Origin: a virus
IMG/VR virus record: IMGVR_UViG_3300050821_001592
Coordinates: 1-64,000 of that record
Length of the DNA stretch: 64,000 nucleotides
Reading direction: 5' to 3' (one strand)
Every line of letters begins with the position of its first letter. The first letter of the stretch is position 1. This document shows positions 23,847 to 36,089 of the stretch, in pieces. The position numbers were made by a program, and so were the translations under genes. The notes beneath the pieces are model-generated. The model saw only the letters and a program-made list of their open reading frames with translations, had not been told where the DNA came from and searched no databases.

Positions 23847-24572
23847 TTAGAACCCGGTTTCGGTCTTAACGAATTGTCGGGCAAGAAATCCCGTCACGAA
23901 TCCAATTTCGAACCACTTACGCCTGCCCTTACGAGCGGCGTCTTTCGCGACCTTGACCTGTTCCTTGCAAACTTGAGCATCGTCGACGGCTTTGAGCTTC
24001 AAGCCCGATACCTCTGTATTTAAGTCCGAGACTTGCTTAGCGTCTGCGGAGAGTAGAGAAAGGGCGTCTGTGGTTTGCTGGGTGCTGTTCGCGAGCTGTT
24101 GTGTTAACACAGGGACTTGTTCAAGAACATCAACCGTGGCGTGGGCATTCGCGGGAGAGACATCCACCCCTCCATCGGGGGTCATCGGAGCGCCATCGAA
24201 CTTAGCTTGAGGGACTAGTGTCTGCCAACGTGCGATTAGTTGTGACGTAGTCATGACATCGTCCGTCTTTTGTTGTTTCGCCAAAGCGGTAGACAGCGCA
24301 GTATTCGCTTGTATCAACGCGGCATCTTGTGCTTGCATTTTCGCTTGCAGTGCATCAAATGCAATTCTATCCGAAGCGACTTGTGCAGCAATCGCAGCGT
24401 TTGCGTCTGCTTGTGCTTTATCGGCGAGGAGGGCCTTGCCGTATTCTACGTTGTCGTGAGCGGCTATGGTAGACTCGACCTTGCCCGCGACTCCGAAGAC
24501 AAGCCCGGCTGCGAGCACAACCATCAGAATAGTTTCATGAGCTTTGACGAATTTTATGTATGACTCAAGCAT
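23847..24572 (-). CDS. Membrane-anchored coiled-coil protein
   Basis: A 241-residue protein from ATG 24572 (GGAG upstream); an in-frame ATG at 24713, also with AAGGAG, would add 47 residues. Residues 14-33 form a transmembrane helix (LMVVLAAGLVFGVAG), then long Ala/Gln-rich heptads (IAAQVASDRIAFDALQAKMQ) run to near the C-terminus, which holds a second amphipathic helix. The N-in single span with a long coiled coil is the shape of an inner-membrane spanin or tail-associated rod; no outer spanin was found nearby. Confidence 0.5.
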   Translation of the reverse strand: MLESYIKFVKAHETILMVVLAAGLVFGVAGKVESTIAAHDNVEYGKALLADKAQADANAAIAAQVASDRIAFDALQAKMQAQDAALIQANTALSTALAKQQKTDDVMTTSQLIARWQTLVPQAKFDGAPMTPDGGVDVSPANAHATVDVLEQVPVLTQQLANSTQQTTDALSLLSADAKQVSDLNTEVSGLKLKAVDDAQVCKEQVKVAKDAARKGRRKWFEIGFVTGFLARQFVKTETGF

Positions 24573-24574
24573 GA

Positions 24575-24688
24575 TTACTCCACGTATCCCAGAATCGCTT
24601 CCTGTGTCGGGTTGAATCGGGCACACCAATCGGTAGCGAGAACCTCCCCCGATACGACACCGCTCGGGCCCCTTGGCCGGATGTTCAA
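24575..24688 (-). CDS. Possible small protein
   Basis: A 37-residue frame from TTG 24688 ending in TAA just before the next start. It reads MNIRPRGPSGVVSGEV, then LATDWCARFNPTQEAILG, a more protein-like sequence than the competing extension of the 23847 gene in the same DNA. No ribosome-binding site is clear, so it stays uncertain. Confidence 0.3.
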   Translation of the reverse strand: MNIRPRGPSGVVSGEVLATDWCARFNPTQEAILGYVE

Positions 24689-24715
24689 AGGCCACTTGTT
24701 GTTTCGTGAACATAT

Positions 24716-24934: not shown

Positions 24935-25426
24935 CTATACCGTATTACCGATTACATATGTATCTTGAGTGACCTTTTTTGCTGCTCCATCTCGGAACTT
25001 CTTATGTCGCTCCTGCATTGCTGGGATTTTTGACGCGACATAATCCAACGCTTTCGCATAGAGAGACGTTGAGTTCCCCACAACAGGTCGGTCATCTATT
25101 AGATTGCCTGTTGTTTGGGCGTCGAGAAGAATGCCCATACACGCTCTAGCGTGACCAAGATGGTGGCATCCAGAGTCTTCGGCCTCTTCTTGGCCTTCGA
25201 ACCACAAGTCGAGGTGGCGCTTCGCCGCCGCTACATATATCGACGCGATAACTTTATTTGCTCTCCAGTTAAACGGGTCATATTTGCCCGCGCCGTCCAT
25301 CATAGCAAGACCTTCCCATGCGAGAGCGATAGCGGGGATTTTTGTGACGTCTACCTTCTTAGCTCCTAGAATGTCCTTAGGATTACTTCCCAAGGCTTGT
25401 GAGGTTGGCGCAACCGTCGTGGACAT
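24935..25426 (-). CDS. DUF5664-like dATP/dGTP pyrophosphohydrolase
   Basis: A 163-residue protein from ATG 25426 with GGAGGAAAG upstream. GAGKYDPFNWRANKV, AAAKRHLDLWFEGQEEAEDS and HHLGHARACMGILLDAQ match the conserved helices of the dATP/dGTP diphosphohydrolase family that I recall as DUF5664. The Asp, Glu and His residues would bind metal and hydrolyse purine dNTPs to dNMPs. Relatives called MazZ act with PurZ in 2-aminoadenine phages; no PurZ is visible here. The start overlaps the upstream gene by 44 bases. Confidence 0.65.
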   Translation of the reverse strand: MSTTVAPTSQALGSNPKDILGAKKVDVTKIPAIALAWEGLAMMDGAGKYDPFNWRANKVIASIYVAAAKRHLDLWFEGQEEAEDSGCHHLGHARACMGILLDAQTTGNLIDDRPVVGNSTSLYAKALDYVASKIPAMQERHKKFRDGAAKKVTQDTYVIGNTV

Positions 25427-25913
25427 CTCTTTCCTCCGATAGGTATTTCTTGACTTCATCCCACGTCCCAAAAAGTTTGACAGCCGGATACACCGAGGTC
25501 ACTCCCGCCCCGTCGAGATAGTGGAACACGTTTTCTTTCTTACCGAGTATGATGAGTTCTCGTGTGGGTTTGCCAAAATCTAAAGATTGAGCAACCGCGA
25601 GTCCATATACAAACCCCGATTCGAAATGTCGTCCTCCTCTCGAAGACGCCGCAACCGTCGCGTCAATGAGCATCTTGTCTTCCGGCACGGTCAGGACGAC
25701 TTTGTCAGCCCGAAGGATATCTTCTAGGTCCGCGACTGCGGTCTCACGAAGATATTCGTCTGTGCATTGTTGGAGAGTAACGTTGTGCGGAACTTTCTCG
25801 TCCGCCCACCGCGAGGAACAGGCGATGCCAAGGAGTGCCAGCTCCTCGGCTCGCTGTTTAACACGGTCCTTGTCCGAGAACATGGACGCGATGTATACCG
25901 TTAGGGGCTTCAC
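25383..25913 (-). CDS. Nucleoside 2-deoxyribosyltransferase-like protein
   Basis: A 176-residue protein from GTG 25913 with AAGGAG upstream. VYIASMFSDKDRV at the start, AVADLEDILRADKVVLTVPE in the middle and SRGGRHFESGFVYGLAVAQS fit the nucleoside deoxyribosyltransferase fold, where the Asp and the E of HFESG are catalytic or sugar-binding. A later GKKENVFHYL motif also occurs in phage members. It would exchange or cleave the base of deoxynucleosides or dNMPs. Neighbours with nuclease and dNTP-hydrolase motifs support a nucleotide recycling role. Confidence 0.65.
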   Translation of the reverse strand: MKPLTVYIASMFSDKDRVKQRAEELALLGIACSSRWADEKVPHNVTLQQCTDEYLRETAVADLEDILRADKVVLTVPEDKMLIDATVAASSRGGRHFESGFVYGLAVAQSLDFGKPTRELIILGKKENVFHYLDGAGVTSVYPAVKLFGTWDEVKKYLSEERDVHDGCANLTSLGK

Positions 25914-26155
25914 AGGCCCAACTCCTTCAATTGACTCGGCTTGCCTTCGTTTATGATAGAGAACCCTGCGAAAAGGTTCATCAACTGCATCGTGGCAATC
26001 TTCCCGACGTCCAGAAACATATACGGGATGAGGAAAGTTTCCTCTTTCAGTTGCTTCGGGTCGTTCACGAGACGAGTGAAGACCTTGACCTCTGTAAGAG
26101 TCCCGGCTCCGTACGTGCCGTCTAGCCTAATACTCGTTGGTTGATTTTCATCCAT
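25910..26155 (-). CDS. Hypothetical protein in nuclease cassette
   Basis: An 81-residue protein from ATG 26155 with GGAGGGGAT upstream (MDENQPTSIRLDGTYGAGTL). The rest mixes strands and helices (TEVKVFTRLVNDPKQLKEET, then TMQLMNLFAGFSI). It lies between the A1-like gene and the deoxyribosyltransferase-like gene and overlaps the latter by 4 bases. No family was recognised. Confidence 0.55.
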   Translation of the reverse strand: MDENQPTSIRLDGTYGAGTLTEVKVFTRLVNDPKQLKEETFLIPYMFLDVGKIATMQLMNLFAGFSIINEGKPSQLKELGL

Positions 26156-26192
26156 ATCCCCTCCAGAATTTAGATTCAAAAGATTGACGAGG

Positions 26193-27866
26193 TTACGCCC
26201 GCCATCTTTCTCCACGCTGAGTAACTATCGCACGCTGTCCGTTGTCGTATTGCAGGACGTGACTGTGAGACCACGCACTCGGGCCAACAGTATACCCCCA
26301 CTCTTTCGTCAACACGGTTGACGTACCTGCAACATAGAGTCCGTGGAATATGCCTGCGGTGTGCGTGTGGGCTGTAGTGGCTTTCACGCCAATTTTACTG
26401 AGGTTGTTAGGTGACCCATTGGCCCCGTTCGCCCCGACGTGCCCGTGCATGTCCAGTGCGACCTCTCCGACGAAATATGGCTCGTCGGGGGTTAGGAAGG
26501 TCACTGCGCCTTTCGGAAGGCCCGCTTCATTAACCATCGCCCGTTCGACGAGATTGACGTCCTTAGGCAATTTCCCCTTACGGATTTCCGAATACATGAA
26601 CTCCTGCAATCGCAGAAATAATTCGGCGTTCGCGGGGTCCACCCGATAATCGAATTCACTCAACCAACGCTTCAACCATTTACGGTCATGATTAGCATCA
26701 GGAACGACGGTCTTGCACCACGGACGAAGGTATTTTTCAATAACGGCTTTCGTTCGTTTGAATTCCTCATCAACCCGATGCAAACCACGTAGCCAATTCG
26801 CGAACTTCTCGTGGTTGTCTTTATATTTCCGGTCATGGGGATTAAAACCCGCACCTTCGAATAAGTCATGAAGTGCCTGATGCCCCGGCTTAAGGGTGTC
26901 GAGCATTTCCATCGCAGCGGACGTAACTCTCGGGTCTGCTTTTGTAGCGTGGATGTCTCCCCATGTAATGGCGGCAACTGTTGCTTTTGTAGAAGTAACA
27001 ACCCCGTCCTCGACAAGGACATTCAAGTCTTGAATAACACGACCATTCTTACGAGCGGCAACTTGACGGACCCACCAATTTCCCTTACCGTCGACTTCTA
27101 CGATGAGGAAGGCATAGCGATGGTGGTGTTCTGCCTTCTGGCCGACCTTCTTCTGGATATAATTGAGTTGAGTGACCGCGCCTGTCGTATACAGCATTTT
27201 AACCGGGCGGTCGGGCGGCATCGCTATAGAGCGCATCTCAATCTTCGTGTGAGGCACTATGATGCTGGAACTGCCTTTATGAGATTCGAGCCCCGACAGA
27301 GGCTTGTCCTCCGTCGGCATGATGTTCATTTCTCCACACCACAGTAAGTCAGGCGCGAGCAAAACGGCGGAATCTTTGATGAAGGGCTGAATCTTCTCGT
27401 CAAACCACAGAGTGTACTCGTACGGACGCTTTGTTCCGCGCTTTACTGCCAACTTACCGTAACGATTCTGGTTGTATGAGAACGTCCCTATCATGACTTG
27501 GGCGTCGTAGTGTTTCGAGAACGCGAGAACATTAGCCCAAAAAGCCTCGTGAACGTGCGTATTGTTTTGAGCAGAAGTCAGGATATACCGCTTAACATCC
27601 TTCGTGTTGGGCAACGCGGCCCGTTCTTCTTTGGATTTCAACTGTCCGCCTGCTAGCGGCTTACCGATGCCTGCCTTGCGCTGGGTCGGGGTTAACTTAT
27701 CAGTGATTGCGGAAAGGATGTCATCGTGTTTCGAAAAAAACTTCGAACGCTGTTTATCTGTAAAAACTGACTTAGCTCGGAGATAATCACGAGTAAGCGG
27801 ACCCTGAAGAGTCAACGCGACCCTCAAAGCGTCATCAACAATCTGGGATTTCGTCACCTTTGTCAT
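26193..27866 (-). CDS. Metallophosphoesterase-type DNase candidate, T5 A1-like
   Basis: A 557-residue protein; ATG 27866 follows GGGGGAAAGG. ILTSAQNNTHVHEAFWANVL and IGTFSYNQNRYG form a distinct N-terminal part. Metal-site motifs then appear: WGDIHA, PDANHDRKW (NHD), LDMHGHVGANGANG and ATTAHTHTAGIFHG (HTH), which match the GD-x-H, NH[DE] and H-x-H motifs of calcineurin-like enzymes. The length and motif order resemble the phage T5 pre-early protein A1, a metallophosphatase-fold nuclease that degrades host DNA; homology was not tested. A promoter lies just upstream, so it may be expressed separately from the late genes. Confidence 0.6.
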   Translation of the reverse strand: MTKVTKSQIVDDALRVALTLQGPLTRDYLRAKSVFTDKQRSKFFSKHDDILSAITDKLTPTQRKAGIGKPLAGGQLKSKEERAALPNTKDVKRYILTSAQNNTHVHEAFWANVLAFSKHYDAQVMIGTFSYNQNRYGKLAVKRGTKRPYEYTLWFDEKIQPFIKDSAVLLAPDLLWCGEMNIMPTEDKPLSGLESHKGSSSIIVPHTKIEMRSIAMPPDRPVKMLYTTGAVTQLNYIQKKVGQKAEHHHRYAFLIVEVDGKGNWWVRQVAARKNGRVIQDLNVLVEDGVVTSTKATVAAITWGDIHATKADPRVTSAAMEMLDTLKPGHQALHDLFEGAGFNPHDRKYKDNHEKFANWLRGLHRVDEEFKRTKAVIEKYLRPWCKTVVPDANHDRKWLKRWLSEFDYRVDPANAELFLRLQEFMYSEIRKGKLPKDVNLVERAMVNEAGLPKGAVTFLTPDEPYFVGEVALDMHGHVGANGANGSPNNLSKIGVKATTAHTHTAGIFHGLYVAGTSTVLTKEWGYTVGPSAWSHSHVLQYDNGQRAIVTQRGERWRA

Positions 27867-27889
27867 GAGCACCTTTCCCCCACATTTCA

Positions 27890-27918
27890 ACAGTACTATA
27901 CTTTCGTGCTATTGTCAA
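27890..27918 (-). promoter_or_regulatory. Candidate promoter for the A1-like cassette
   Basis: On the - strand TTGACA (27913-27918) precedes TACTGT (27890-27895) with a 17-base spacer. The -35 is perfect and the -10 is weak (3 of 6). It occupies the only gap between the lysis cassette and the A1-like gene. TAGTACTG and GTGGGGGAAA are shared with the + strand promoter at 3470. Confidence 0.5.
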
Positions 27919-29554: not shown

Positions 29555-32500
29555 CTATTTTTGAGAGGCATTCCACTGACTATCGGTCGTCCAGACGGGT
29601 CGTTTAAATCCGCCCGCTTTCTCGATAATCTGTTTTCGAGCTTCGTCTTTAGTAATCTTGCCTTCGCTCGCTTGTCGCCAGATATCCGCAGCGTCCTTAC
29701 GGATGCTACCTTTTTTGCCCTCACGACTAAACAAGGACCTTATGCCTTCCCAAGTTATGGATTGCATCTCTCTCGGAGAAACGCCGACTTCCTTTGCCGC
29801 CTGCTTATAGGCTTCATCATAGACCGGGTATGAACCACCCAGCCCCGTGCCCGCATGTTTGCCCGCGCCGGGTACACCCGGTGTAGACCCGCCGAAGTTG
29901 TGAGCCACCTCCGTATCTTTCTGGGAGAATGGTTTCCAATGAGCTGCGCCTACGGCGTGCGTATCAATAGTGACGTGCCCCCTGTCGGACCACGGGTTAA
30001 TGATGTTGTTATAGAAGTTCCTAATCTTGTGCCCGTTGCCCATCAAACGATTGATGTTCTCGATTGAACCGTCGTCTAGGAGGTTAACGGCCTTTGCGAC
30101 AGCGTCGTATGGGCCCCAAGCAATCTTCTGCGACCCTCGGATTGTTCCGTCGGGGGCATACACTGGAATCTCGGGTGAGCCGTACGCTTGGTCAGCCATG
30201 CGAAGCCAAAGACCGCGCATTACGCTCGTTTCAGCGGGGGTGTCGCCCTGAAGCTCATCATAGGACTTACCACGCACGCTATCAAGGAACCCTCGGAATT
30301 CCGGCTTAGTCGACTTGGCATTACGGATGGCTGAAAGTTTCTCGTCCATCTTTTCATCCCAGATACGACCTCTGTCGTTCTTCCAACGCTCCATCAATCG
30401 TTGCGCCATGCCAACATTATTATCCCAAGGGTTGTTGGGTGACAGCGCAGCGATGACCGCAGCGGCTTGCTCGTGAGCTAGACCATAGTCATTAGCAAAC
30501 CCCTTGCTCAAATCGTGTGCCGATTCATACCACTGTTTCGAGATACCGCGTATCGATTCGGGAATAGCGTTGTATAACGCTACGAGATTATCTTTGTAGT
30601 GGGCTACTGCTTTTTTGATAATTGAATTCGCGTGCTCAGCAGGCGTTTCCAATTCTTCGGGGGTGAGTTTTAGACCCGTATCTTTGTAGTTCGCCACCGC
30701 TTGAGCTATGGTCGCCTTCAACTTCGGAGGCGCATCGTTCAATGTTTTCATGCCGGAAGTACGGTCAGGGTTGTTAGTCGTGTCCGCGTTCACGGTTTGC
30801 GGATTAGACGTCGCAATCTCTTTACTCTTCAAGGCGTCTGTATACTCGGGCGAGACCTTAGTTACGGGTCTCGCTTCCGGCAATGCCGCCGTCTTAAGTT
30901 CTTGAGCACGCTTAGCGATATCTGAGAAGGATGCGGTGTCTCCAAGCTCTGTTCTTGCTTGTTGAAAGAATGCCGTATCCCGAGCTGCGCCTTCGGGAGT
31001 ACCGACGGTTTGCGTCTTTGCCTGAGGCGGTTGAGGCATGTTTGGGTCACGGTTCATTGTTGCCCGAGCGCCCTCTGTTTGGTCAAATGGATTACTAATG
31101 GGTCGACGATTCTTGATAGCGTCTTCCAATTCAGCAGCAGACATCGTGGAACGCGACCCCGCCCGTCGTTCTTCGCCTGTATAAGATTCAGGTACGGCTA
31201 GTGAGTACTGTCCATTCTCTTCCCTTACAGCGTTTGGGAACTCCCGCTGTAGGGCCTGCCACACGCCTGCGGCTTTTGTCGTATTAGACACGTCCGACTC
31301 AATCGTCTTGACACCCGCCTTCTGAGCTTCCTGAATGAGTTGTTTGTACGCACCAATACCGTAGCCTTTGCCTGTCTCTCCATTCTTAACAACTGCGTCT
31401 TTAACCGTCCATGTACCCGGAATCTGTTCCTCAACCTTGATATGACCGATAGGCTCGTCCCCCCGCATGATTTCCAAGCGGTCGGGCTTACCCTCGGCAT
31501 CTGTGACCATGTCGTGGGTGACGGTCGGTTCTGGTTTCGCAACCTCGTCCAACAGAGATGAGGTCTGGGGTTGTGCCTGCGCCTTCACTTCAGCGGCGGC
31601 TTTACCCTGAGCTTGGTTCATAAGGTCTTCGAACTCGCGACCCGCCCCGCCTTCACCAAAAGGTTCACCTACTGTGCCGGGAGGGCCTAGCTCTCCGTGT
31701 TCACGAGTAACAGCGTCTTTGAGATTAGTAGCCAACTTAGAAAACCATTGCCCCCAAGCTGGATTGAACATGATACGGTCCATCAAAAACTTGGATGCGA
31801 TGGTACCTGTCATGCCGAAAGGTACCAAATGGGACGCCGCGACTTCCAGCGCGTATATACCCCAAGCCTTAATACCTTTAGGTGCGCCTTTAATAGGGTC
31901 GAATAGCTTAGTGACGTTCTGCCAGTTGTCGTATCCTTCCTCACCTAATAGACGTTTGAAAGCTCCGGGGCCTTGCCCGCGACGAATCATCTTGTTATCG
32001 ATGTTAGCTTCGAGTCCGCGTAGAGTGTTTCCGGTTATCGTACCCTTCGCGGTTGCGCCGCGCAGGCCATTAGCTATCTCTTGAAAACGTTGAGAGTCTG
32101 CATATAATTTCTTTGCCGAATCATACTCAGCGGGGGAGATGACATCGCTATGTTGTTTGAACCAGCTATCAATCGCCTTCTCGGCCTTCGGAATACCTGT
32201 TTTATATGCGTCCTCGCGAATAGCTGCGTCTTGGCTATTACTGTCCGCTTTAGCACGGTCCAATTCAGCCTTCAACTCGCTATACGACTGAGGCTTCTCG
32301 GGAATCGATACGGCGTTAGGGTCGTATACCGCATGGGGCATGGGCTCTTCGCCTTCAGAGAGGTTGGCGTTGTATGCGTCAATATTAGCGTTGTGACGGT
32401 CCAGCAGGTCCTTATGGTCATTCAACGCTTCCTTCACCGTGTGTTGCCACGCCGCGATATCCGCATCGGACGCAACATCAGCTTTTTTATATGTTTTTTG

Positions 32501-33652
32501 CGCGGTCGCTTCTGCGGCTTGCGCGGCCTCGTCATGCGTCTGGAATTTAGACAGAGTTTGGGTGCCTGCAATTTGGTCAGGCGTCGGTCGGCCATCCATG
32601 ATGGCGTTGTGTCGATTAATCTTATCCTCAGCGACTTGACCTATCGTGCTGGTGAGCTGACGTGTAGCAGCGGGGGCGGTCTTCGTTTTCTGAAATTCTT
32701 CGGCTGTTCCGGGGGTGGTCATCAGTCTTGTCGCACCCTTTGTAACGACCGACGGATTCTCCTGTTGGATGGCCGAAATCGGGGCTTCTACGCCCGCTGT
32801 TTTTTGTGTCGTGGGTCGAAGAGTTGTTCGTTCGCCTGCGACCGTACCGGGGGTTTTCGGCATCGGACCCTTGACTGTGGAGTTCAAAGCGTCGAGCTTC
32901 AGTTTATTCCACGTCGCATCTGTCGATGGGGTACGCCCCAGAGTTTCATCAATTGCACCTTTCACGGGATGAGCCGCAGCCATGGCGGCGACTTGAGAAA
33001 CAGCCCCGCCGACATCGCCGCTCTCGGCTTTATCAACCAAACTGGCGACAAATGGCCCCGCGATAGGGACATATTCGCCTGCTGTATGGACGTAGGTGTT
33101 GAGAAGATGACCAATCGCCTCTGCACCTTTCGATTTAGTATATGCTTCCGCTTCAGCTAGAGCTTTCTGGCGCTCCTCAGCCGACGGAGCCGTGATGTAT
33201 TTACCGAGGAGAGTGTTCGCCTTGGGGTCGGTCCAAGAAATTTTCTTCTCGTCGGGCATAATAGCGGGCATCTTCGTGGAGATGAGGTCGTGCGCTACCC
33301 CGCCGAGGAATCCCGCCACCCCGTGTCCGAGGTTTCCAATATTATACGCGACGTTTTCATTCGTGAATCCGAGTTGTTTCGGGGGTGCGCTCGTCGGTGC
33401 TCCCCGCTCTGCTTCAGTCTCTTCATCGCCTGTTATACCGTGCCACAAAGCCTTTGCAGTGTTTGTAACGTGATTCTGCACTTCATCGAGATATGATGGC
33501 GTGGCGGTATCAATCGTGTTGACGGGGTTCGCAGTCTTCGGAGCTTCCGCTGCGACTTGGTCAAGCAGTGAGCCCTGATTCGGAGACGCGGGCGCATTCG
33601 GTTGTGGTGCTGGTGCTGGTCCAGCAACTTCGTCTAGTAAACTGCCCGCCAT
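29555..33652 (-). CDS. Giant internal virion/ejection protein with GNAT-like segment
   Basis: 1365 residues; ATG 33652 has AAAGGAGAG upstream. The start MAGSLLDEVAGP is repeated as SLLDQVA at residue 28 and SLLDEVA near residue 699, with a variant near 53. A helical body with hydrophobic segments (GVAGFLGGVAH; YALEVAASHLVPFGM) follows. Around residues 760-800, ETGKGYGIGAYKQLIQEA with a following acidic strand resembles acetyl-CoA-binding motif A of GNAT enzymes. The C-terminus carries HVTIDTHAVGAAHW and PREMQSITWEGIRSLF, a block seen in phage internal proteins (DUF7178-like, from memory). It probably travels in the capsid and enters the cell with DNA; an enzymatic role is inferred. Confidence 0.65.
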   Translation of the reverse strand: MAGSLLDEVAGPAPAPQPNAPASPNQGSLLDQVAAEAPKTANPVNTIDTATPSYLDEVQNHVTNTAKALWHGITGDEETEAERGAPTSAPPKQLGFTNENVAYNIGNLGHGVAGFLGGVAHDLISTKMPAIMPDEKKISWTDPKANTLLGKYITAPSAEERQKALAEAEAYTKSKGAEAIGHLLNTYVHTAGEYVPIAGPFVASLVDKAESGDVGGAVSQVAAMAAAHPVKGAIDETLGRTPSTDATWNKLKLDALNSTVKGPMPKTPGTVAGERTTLRPTTQKTAGVEAPISAIQQENPSVVTKGATRLMTTPGTAEEFQKTKTAPAATRQLTSTIGQVAEDKINRHNAIMDGRPTPDQIAGTQTLSKFQTHDEAAQAAEATAQKTYKKADVASDADIAAWQHTVKEALNDHKDLLDRHNANIDAYNANLSEGEEPMPHAVYDPNAVSIPEKPQSYSELKAELDRAKADSNSQDAAIREDAYKTGIPKAEKAIDSWFKQHSDVISPAEYDSAKKLYADSQRFQEIANGLRGATAKGTITGNTLRGLEANIDNKMIRRGQGPGAFKRLLGEEGYDNWQNVTKLFDPIKGAPKGIKAWGIYALEVAASHLVPFGMTGTIASKFLMDRIMFNPAWGQWFSKLATNLKDAVTREHGELGPPGTVGEPFGEGGAGREFEDLMNQAQGKAAAEVKAQAQPQTSSLLDEVAKPEPTVTHDMVTDAEGKPDRLEIMRGDEPIGHIKVEEQIPGTWTVKDAVVKNGETGKGYGIGAYKQLIQEAQKAGVKTIESDVSNTTKAAGVWQALQREFPNAVREENGQYSLAVPESYTGEERRAGSRSTMSAAELEDAIKNRRPISNPFDQTEGARATMNRDPNMPQPPQAKTQTVGTPEGAARDTAFFQQARTELGDTASFSDIAKRAQELKTAALPEARPVTKVSPEYTDALKSKEIATSNPQTVNADTTNNPDRTSGMKTLNDAPPKLKATIAQAVANYKDTGLKLTPEELETPAEHANSIIKKAVAHYKDNLVALYNAIPESIRGISKQWYESAHDLSKGFANDYGLAHEQAAAVIAALSPNNPWDNNVGMAQRLMERWKNDRGRIWDEKMDEKLSAIRNAKSTKPEFRGFLDSVRGKSYDELQGDTPAETSVMRGLWLRMADQAYGSPEIPVYAPDGTIRGSQKIAWGPYDAVAKAVNLLDDGSIENINRLMGNGHKIRNFYNNIINPWSDRGHVTIDTHAVGAAHWKPFSQKDTEVAHNFGGSTPGVPGAGKHAGTGLGGSYPVYDEAYKQAAKEVGVSPREMQSITWEGIRSLFSREGKKGSIRKDAADIWRQASEGKITKDEARKQIIEKAGGFKRPVWTTDSQWNASQK

Positions 33653-33662
33653 AAACTCTCCT

Positions 33663-36089
33663 TTACTGAAGCAACCAACCGTTGTTTTTTGCCAGAGCAA
33701 CAGCCGCGTTGCGGTCATTACCTGCTGCTTGATAGTATGCTCGGGCCATGTTCTTATCAGTCATCTGCGTAGCCTGATGGTTGACCCAACCGCGAGGTAA
33801 CGGCTGTGTAAATGGCAGAGCCTTAGAGTCGATACCCATACGCTTCAAGGCATTCTGTGCGTCCGTTGACATCAAATGAGGGTAGGTCGTACCCATCGTA
33901 TTTACATACGCTTGACCCAACCCCTTCAATCGGACGTCTGCGGTGTCCGCTAATTGGCGAATAACGCTTTTGACTTGTCGAAGAGGGAGTTTGTCACTCA
34001 ACAGGGCGTTCATGTTCGCCACATCTTCCGACTTCGTAGCGTAGCCCGCAGCTAAGAAGTTCTCAATCTCGTGTTTCACAGGTTCGAGAGCGGCGGTATA
34101 CGCAGACCAATCTTTATCGTCGGTCAATTGGTTGCCGATTTCCTTCAACGTCATGTTGAGTACGGGGCTGTGCGTCAAGCCAAGTGTCTTTGATTCCAAC
34201 CGACCTTCGGCATCAAGTAATGCAGCCGAGTGCCCAAGATAGTTATCAAACGAGACGAGCTGCTTGCCCGTAGGTGTTTTCTGTCCGCCTGAATAATCCT
34301 TGTACATGTTTGCTTTGGCTTCGAGAGCCGAACCTCCGTACTGAGTCGTATCCAACCCACGGTCAGCGGCTTCGTCGTGAATGGCATTGATAGCGTTTTC
34401 GCGAGCGTTGCCACGCATACTTACAATCTTAGTGACATCGTTGACATCGCCTTCAATTGTATTACTCGCGGTCCTCTTCATTTGTTCGGGGTCGCCGTTG
34501 GCGAGCTTGTTCTTCTCTTGAATGCCTGCACGCATGGCAACAGCCGCGTCGAGACGCGCTGTCAACTTCTCCACTTGCCCTTGCGTCATCAGAATTTGAC
34601 CATCCTTACCAGCGGTCGGTACGTCCGCGAGTAAGTTAGTCTTGTCTGATTCTTCTAGGTCGGGATTTCCCTTAATGCTGTTCACGAGAGCGGAGGTCTG
34701 GGCGGGGTTAGCGGGGGCTTTCTCACCCATGCCGCCTTGCTTCGCTAATGCTTCAGCAGAAGCACGACGATTTGTGACATCGTTGATGTAGTTCTGCACT
34801 TTATCCCGGTCGGTTCCGAGAGCTTTGAAAATAGCATCCCCGCCATCGGCGGCAAGAAGCCGTTGGAGCTGAGCGGCGGTATCACCACCGTGCGCGGTCG
34901 CGCTCTCGAAATCCAACAAGGCCCGCATAGCGGACGGGTTACCTCTAACCGCAGCGGCCAGACGGCCTTCGACATCGCCGTGAATTCCAAGAGCCTTCAG
35001 CCCTTCATCTTTAGAATCGGATATAGACTGAAGGAGGTCTTCCGCATGGTCCACACTATTAATCTGGTGAGTCACGGCGGCGAAACGCCCGAGATTCAAT
35101 CGGACATCACCATTCGTTTGTTCGTACAAATTAGCGAAGCTTGGATTGATTTTCGCAGCCCGGTCAACCGCCTCTTTGTTGAGTTTGATGTCTACGTCGG
35201 GATTAAGAACCGTCCAAGTCGGAACGGAATGCGTCTTTCCGGTGCTAGGGTCAACTACCGAACGAAGACCATCTTGAACCATTAATTGGCTCGTCATCTT
35301 ATCTTTGAACGGGGACGTCAGAAGTTCTTCCGTGGTCATGCCGGAAGTCAAGCGGGCTTTCGGAGCGTCAGGCGTATTTCGATTGTTATCAAAATCATCC
35401 GCGCTCGCGAGAATCGTCGACTTATTCTGGTCTACGATGCCCTGCCAATTTTTGGTCTGAGTCATTTCCGCTTCTGCGCCTTCTTTTTCGGCAGCGAACT
35501 GAGCTTGTTGCATTGACGCATAGCCGTGCATCGCAGCCGTGTTAGCCGCAACGGCGTTCAACTTTCGCGTCTGCATGTCGTCGTATTGCTTCTGAGCTGA
35601 TTGGCTCAGCTCTTTACCTTTTTCAGCTCCGGTGCCAAACGCAGCGATGGTGCTTGACGGGTCGATACGTTGTGCTCCCCCCGGACCTTCGACATATTTA
35701 TTAGGCGTCATCATACCCGCCATTACAGACGCCATGAACATCTTTGCCATCGACGGCGTAGTGCGTGCGTCAGTGATTGTTTGTTTACCGTCGGGGGTGG
35801 TGCGAATTACGGGTTGTTGGGGGGTTACGGCTTTCAGGATGTGATTGAACCACTCGCCCTTCGTCTTAGGGGCGGTTGCTACGGGCGAAGGTGTAGCTTC
35901 CGGTGCGGGACTTACCGGGGTGGACGTTGGGGAGGTAGTGGGGGTAGGGACCACGGGCGACAGGTTCGAAGGGTTCGGAGTCACTGTATTCGGAATGGAA
36001 GAGACCGAATCTGGTGCCTGAGTCGGAACGCCAGTACCTAAAGTACTTGAAGGGTCAATCTGTTGTGCTGTCTTTATCGGGTCTGGCAT
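33663..36089 (-). CDS. Internal virion/ejection protein
   Basis: 808 residues. The first 120 are Pro/Thr/Ser-rich and disordered; the rest is mostly helical with Gln/Ala/Lys heptads (QAQFAAEKEGAEAEMTQTKN), typical of phage ejection proteins (compare T7 gp15 or P22 gp16 by position, not sequence). It lies between the giant gene and another Gln/Ala-rich gene and is spaced 8 bases from the latter. A channel or DNA-transfer role is inferred from genome position. Confidence 0.6.
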   Translation of the reverse strand: MPDPIKTAQQIDPSSTLGTGVPTQAPDSVSSIPNTVTPNPSNLSPVVPTPTTSPTSTPVSPAPEATPSPVATAPKTKGEWFNHILKAVTPQQPVIRTTPDGKQTITDARTTPSMAKMFMASVMAGMMTPNKYVEGPGGAQRIDPSSTIAAFGTGAEKGKELSQSAQKQYDDMQTRKLNAVAANTAAMHGYASMQQAQFAAEKEGAEAEMTQTKNWQGIVDQNKSTILASADDFDNNRNTPDAPKARLTSGMTTEELLTSPFKDKMTSQLMVQDGLRSVVDPSTGKTHSVPTWTVLNPDVDIKLNKEAVDRAAKINPSFANLYEQTNGDVRLNLGRFAAVTHQINSVDHAEDLLQSISDSKDEGLKALGIHGDVEGRLAAAVRGNPSAMRALLDFESATAHGGDTAAQLQRLLAADGGDAIFKALGTDRDKVQNYINDVTNRRASAEALAKQGGMGEKAPANPAQTSALVNSIKGNPDLEESDKTNLLADVPTAGKDGQILMTQGQVEKLTARLDAAVAMRAGIQEKNKLANGDPEQMKRTASNTIEGDVNDVTKIVSMRGNARENAINAIHDEAADRGLDTTQYGGSALEAKANMYKDYSGGQKTPTGKQLVSFDNYLGHSAALLDAEGRLESKTLGLTHSPVLNMTLKEIGNQLTDDKDWSAYTAALEPVKHEIENFLAAGYATKSEDVANMNALLSDKLPLRQVKSVIRQLADTADVRLKGLGQAYVNTMGTTYPHLMSTDAQNALKRMGIDSKALPFTQPLPRGWVNHQATQMTDKNMARAYYQAAGNDRNAAVALAKNNGWLLQ

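Follow-up and report, generated by a model that had tools for sequence, protein, structure and literature searches.

The four genes at positions 24935-27866, on the minus strand of the 64,000-nucleotide window analysed here (the whole stretch, that is, positions 1 to 64,000 of IMG/VR virus record IMGVR_UViG_3300050821_001592), probably form an operon with its own promoter and a mode of action like that of the A1+Dmp host-takeover pair of bacteriophage T5, a reading to which we assign a probability of about 0.6. T5 A1 is essential for the degradation of host DNA, while Dmp further degrades the host-derived nucleotides (PMC13250531). However, A1 has been biochemically obscure for decades in spite of being essential, and according to a 2021 paper no nuclease activity has been reported for it (PMC8541194). 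The A1 family and the A1+Dmp strategy are thus already known; the set in the window is a variant with a deoxyribosyltransferase-like (NDT-like) protein and a DUF5664 protein, and it is more general than was first noticed.

The virus record is 84,702 bases (84.7 kb) long, and the phage is probably podovirus-like, because an SU10-type portal match was found in the record. The genes follow each other in the order A1-like, 81-aa, NDT-like and DUF5664. The 81-aa gene starts 37 nt past the end of the A1-like gene, the NDT-like gene has a GTG start and a 4-nt overlap with the preceding 81-aa gene, and the DUF5664 gene overlaps the NDT-like gene by 44 nt. All four genes named in the original prediction are present, with their coordinates confirmed on the minus strand, and the position it gave them, between lysis and tail-fibre genes, fits the lysis-type and tail-fibre-type genes in the neighbourhood. 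The A1-like gene is located about 26 kb from the left end of the record, among late-type genes, and not at a terminal-repeat or first-injected location.

A sigma70-type promoter, TTGACA-17-TACTGT (27890..27918, minus strand), lies in front of the A1-like gene and starts two bases past the stop codon of the upstream gene; its layout is conserved in the nearest A1 relatives. Of the 13 nearest A1 loci, 9 carry the motif TTGACA-17/18-TAnnnT directly before the A1 gene, with spacers that are unrelated to each other. When the comparison is confined to genes preceded by a gap of 40 nt or more, the motif is present at 9/9 A1 genes versus 6/88 other genes (Fisher 3.5e-9). For L015, L018 and L019, A1 comes only 12-13 nt after the previous gene and the promoter motif is missing. 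The enrichment is modest across all 65 loci (p 0.003), and strong only among the nearest 13. A generic sigma70 scan displayed no excess and missed the promoter at 27918-27890, because its -10 element matches only 3/6 positions. The candidate promoter that had been proposed before A1 is accordingly borne out as sequence, with position and spacing conserved in relatives, which suggests that, in the nearest-relative group, transcription of A1 can be independent of the late genes. Such a conserved sigma70-type promoter would be compatible with pre-early transcription. As for the proposed likeness to the T5 pre-early strategy, membership of the A1 family and an own sigma70-type promoter stand, but location in a terminal-repeat pre-early region does not.

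The A1-like protein (26193..27866, minus strand) has 557 aa when translated from the ATG at 27866; an alternative TTG start at 27890 would fall within the -10 box. It matches phrog_1745 (‘DNA transfer protein’, the T5 A1 family) over residues 55-556 of 557 with E 4.4e-154, and no Pfam model matched. By sequence, the protein is a member of the T5 A1 family. Homologues were found by tblastn in 1125 phage records, at least 80% of the query being covered in 1111 of them. The A1 of the T5-like phage saus132 shares 32% identity with it and keeps every motif, and its length of 554 aa agrees with the earlier remark that the gene is about as long as T5 A1. The metallophosphoesterase motifs that had been pointed out, GD-x-H, NHD and H-x-H, are present as GDIH (motif I, residues 303-306, 26949..26960), NHD (motif III, residues 392-394, 26685..26693) and HTH (motif V, residues 500-502, 26361..26369), all on the minus strand. 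In an alignment of 61 A1 relatives from viral contigs, G303, D304 and H306, the whole NHD and H502 are invariant, while H500 is conserved in at least 90%; therefore, the motifs are not due to chance. D334 and H474, the candidate motifs II and IV, are invariant in the same alignment.

The AlphaFold model of the protein (pLDDT 88, pTM 0.83) contains an N-terminal helical segment (residues 1-70, low model confidence), a middle domain and a C-terminal metallophosphoesterase-type domain. Strands precede GDIH, HD334 and NHD in the model, as in metallophosphoesterases, and the five motifs could consequently be assigned as GDIH (I), D334 (II), NHD (III), H474 (IV) and HTH (V), in order and on the strand/helix pattern of the model. 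In a Foldseek search of viral models, A1 relatives were at the top, followed by annotated calcineurin-like phosphoesterases with E values from 7.6e-9 to 4.8e-4 and probability 1.00. The matches in the PDB were weak, none reaching E <= 0.001, and included SbcD (E 0.16), DNA polymerase B-subunits and aq_1956. The structure search that the original prediction had called for thus yields a fold match in the viral library and weak ones in the PDB, and a metallophosphoesterase-type fold is supported by the model. The order DxH, D, NHD, H, HxH and the alternating strand and helix elements are like those of SbcD/Mre11-type and other calcineurin-like phosphoesterases; unlike them, the A1-like protein has a long extra N-terminal and middle domain. 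When PDB sequences were searched by phmmer and with profiles, no meaningful match was obtained for the A1-like, NDT-like or DUF5664 protein, and the matches to guanidinoacetate methyltransferase and a DEAD-box helicase look like local chance matches. It is also observed that 38 of the 61 relatives have an N-terminal helix-turn-helix match (Fis/PucR types, best E 2.5e-7), which gives the appearance of a fusion between the phosphoesterase and a DNA-binding domain. The protein in the window and that of L011 have in common an N-terminal segment different from the helix-turn-helix type.

The 81-aa protein (25910..26155, minus strand) has BLAST matches directly after A1 in the close relatives L015-L019, and no significant family match in profile searches of Pfam and PHROG. 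The next gene encodes an NDT-superfamily-like protein of 176 aa (25383..25913, minus strand), a predicted deoxynucleotide N-glycosidase, for which the Pfam search of the window protein itself gave no match. The assignment comes from PF05014 matches of its relatives (E 9.9e-6, best 1.7e-7; those of L069 and L054 score 26.1 and 23.9 bits versus a cut-off of 28.8) and from a triad of residues. Y7, D62 and E98 are located at the catalytic positions (Tyr, Asp/Asn, Glu) described for the NDT superfamily (PMC12884076). D62 and E98 are invariant in 10 NDT-like relatives, and the Tyr is present in those members whose N-terminus is intact. Since the single-sequence AlphaFold model was useless (pLDDT 35), the membership is based on sequence only. 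The protein displays no detectable sequence similarity to DmtZ of phage Ghobes (hhalign probability 0.7%). The last gene encodes a 163-aa dATP/dGTP pyrophosphohydrolase-like protein (24935..25426, minus strand) that matches PF18909 (DUF5664) with E 1.5e-22 and 79.8 bits, against a cut-off of 27, and phrog_2252 with E 3.6e-45. For this protein, we did not accept the phrog_2252 label ‘endolysin; inhibits RNA polymerase’, because the window protein and its relatives match PF18909; the label, which looks wrong, has spread into RefSeq phage records.

For the neighbourhood census, 80 A1 loci were fetched and reduced, with the window included, to 65, all from metagenomic contigs that are mutually related, with genes from simple in-house ORF calls. 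The recurrent neighbours of A1 are PF18909, the deoxynucleotide kinase PF21448, the NT5C nucleotidase PF06941, YfbR-like HD proteins (weak match) and NDT-like proteins. Because families picked for nearness to A1 were used in the first distance count, a random sample of genes of 90-400 aa was added. Within 2.5 kb of A1, deoxynucleotide enzymes by Pfam account for about 15 of 115 genes, and at 4.5-8 kb for at least 1 of 115, the latter among the matches listed (25 of 48 families). The contrast gives p 0.015 even if four far matches are assumed. Therefore, deoxynucleotide enzymes cluster close to A1 in viral contigs. The link is common and not universal, since 28/65 loci, some of them on short contigs, carry none of the enzymes.

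Among the 52 loci with enough flank, DUF5664 is present in 17. Each of these 17 has exactly one predicted dNMP-destroying enzyme (NDT-like in 8, HAD in 8, HD in 1), compared with 9/35 of the other loci that have one, whereas a dNMP kinase is found in 0/17 of them versus 15/35 of the others. For example, the close relatives L018 and L019 have a HAD 5'-nucleotidase exactly in the slot of the NDT-like gene, while they retain A1, DUF5664 and a homologue of the 81-aa protein. In the A1 tree, the 10-member clade with the window includes NDT, HAD and kinase versions, which indicates that the modules change beside A1; a tree-based independent-pair test gave 4:0 (p 0.125), which is not significant. The link between A1 and deoxynucleotide-hydrolysing enzymes, which had been put forward as conjecture, has thus gained comparative support in the recurrent linkage, the exact pairing and the slot swap. 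That related phages keep the set while swapping an enzyme for another of the same job suggests a common take-over strategy. In addition, A1 beside a dNMP kinase and never with DUF5664 was observed in L013, L014, L027, L028, L053, L072 and others, which suggests that these phages reuse host nucleotides instead of destroying them.

Phage isolates present similar arrangements. A1, an HD phosphatase and DUF5664 are in a row in RHEph08, A1 occurs with a deoxyribosyltransferase in ParKuw1 and NMeng1, and with an annotated phosphoribosyl-ATP pyrophosphohydrolase in elemoA, while dmp is three genes away from A1 in saus132. In Pan1 and R5C, A1 is among structural genes and none of these enzymes is annotated nearby. 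No description of the pairing of A1 with deoxynucleotide enzymes was found in a search of the open-access literature.

A phage DUF5664 enzyme makes dNMP from dATP, dGTP and dUTP, and DmtZ, an NDT-like enzyme of another phage, converts dAMP to adenine (PMC12884076). From this biochemistry and the roles of T5 A1 and Dmp, a scheme could be proposed for the operon, in which we infer the DNase activity, the substrates, the order of steps and the early timing. The A1 homologue, as a metal-dependent phosphoesterase, would be required to degrade host DNA to 5'-deoxynucleotides. The DUF5664 enzyme would turn recycled or pre-existing dATP and dGTP into dNMP, undoing re-phosphorylation, and the NDT-like enzyme would cleave dNMP to the free base and deoxyribose-5-phosphate, which would keep the host from reusing the material. 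The last step is performed by the phosphatase Dmp in T5, and would be performed by N-glycosidic cleavage in the window and by a HAD 5'-nucleotidase in close relatives; interchangeable module parts, with N-glycosidic cleavage in the window version, are the best reading of this comparison. A wider proposal, which we put forward tentatively as somewhat short of an even chance, is a modular, early-expressed island for host-DNA disassembly centred on A1. In such an island, a phosphatase (HD/HAD) or an N-glycosidase (NDT) would be interchangeable for one step. The ‘destroy’ version would always include DUF5664, the opposite, ‘recycle’ version would include a dNMP kinase, and the window would hold the N-glycosidase version.

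Could the A1-like protein be a regulator rather than a nuclease? It would then bind host RNA polymerase or aid DNA transfer like T5 A1, and the nucleotide enzymes would be independent passengers (morons) inserted at a permissive site between late modules. A role with RNA polymerase was considered or preferred in the phiCbK and KASIA papers, in the latter because A2 is absent, and the helix-turn-helix match in 38/61 relatives as well as the variable slot beside A1 are in line with it. However, the metal-site residues are invariant throughout the family, and neither the exact pairing of DUF5664 with a dNMP destroyer nor the exclusion of the kinase is expected of random passengers, and we consider such a role unlikely. 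It is likewise improbable that A1 supplies host dNMPs for phage DNA, with the downstream enzymes doing no more than adjusting the pool by removing, for instance, dUTP or excess dATP/dGTP. A dNMP kinase, a nucleotide recycler, does neighbour A1 in 15 of the 52 sufficiently flanked loci, but none is beside A1 in the window, the DUF5664 loci have none, and dNMP is predicted to be removed by both the NDT-like and the nucleotidase slots. The search of the 84.7-kb record detected no ribonucleotide reductase, an absence that would suit such salvage.

The same absence bears on the reading as a host-takeover operon, since the phage's own replication could suffer if dNTPs are destroyed; consequently, the phage may rely on the host for synthesis at a later stage, or the pair may act only briefly and early. 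T5 combines Dmp with an NrdAB of its own. A further explanation, that the DUF5664 and NDT-like pair belongs to a pathway for modified bases, like that of 2-aminoadenine (Z) phages, and is unrelated to A1, draws on the co-occurrence of both families in the Z phage Wayne (PMC12884076). It appears very improbable, because HAD/HD nucleotidases replace the NDT-like protein, which is incompatible with the role of a base-modification transferase. Moreover, no PurA/PurZ (PF00709) homologue was detected in the 84.7-kb record with a control that was positive in 14/14 cases, and the Z-DNA reading was rejected for the missing PurZ.

Compared with the A1+Dmp system of T5, for which the saus132 record was read, the operon in the window similarly has an A1 with all metal motifs, a predicted dNMP-destroying enzyme nearby on the same strand and a promoter sequence for sigma70-type transcription. 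In contrast, its A1 is outside the terminal repeat and pre-early block, the N-terminal segment differs, and an NDT-like protein plus DUF5664 is present instead of Dmp. An A1 gene outside a pre-early block is shared with the non-T5 phages of the phiCbK, KASIA, Palo and RHEph08 types, where it is in the replication module, whereas that of the window has its own promoter and is flanked by lysis and tail-fibre genes. The combination of an NDT-superfamily protein with DUF5664, and with it a predicted route from dATP through dAMP to adenine, resembles that of Wayne (NDT-Dut-like + DUF5664, PurZ0 pathway), but the window phage lacks PurZ and has A1, and its NDT-like sequence is not detectably similar to DmtZ of Ghobes, a phage related to Wayne.

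The occurrence of A1 relatives in diverse phage contigs beside strictly paired, swappable deoxynucleotide enzymes lends independent support to a role of A1 in host DNA breakdown, and a dNMP-destroying activity is predicted for the unannotated NDT-like family. The question why T5 discards host DNA becomes testable across ‘destroy’ and ‘recycle’ phages.

Some other genes of the phage are also worth recording. The gene at window positions 23847-24713 encodes a membrane-anchored coiled-coil-like protein, from a cluster of about 230-290 aa without a family match, for which a spanin-like function is a guess; this cluster is the commonest neighbour of A1 (31 loci, directly upstream in 18). The 1387-aa ORF at 29555-33718, with DUF7178 and a weak GNAT match, is likely to encode a large virion-associated protein. 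Glycosyltransferase family 11 and FkbM methyltransferase genes, apparently adjoining, are present at record positions 64022-65522 (L005:22-1522), and a change of surface sugars is possible. The same phage also has a second, ordinary calcineurin-like phosphoesterase (PF00149), at record positions 73404-73994 (L005:9404-9994).
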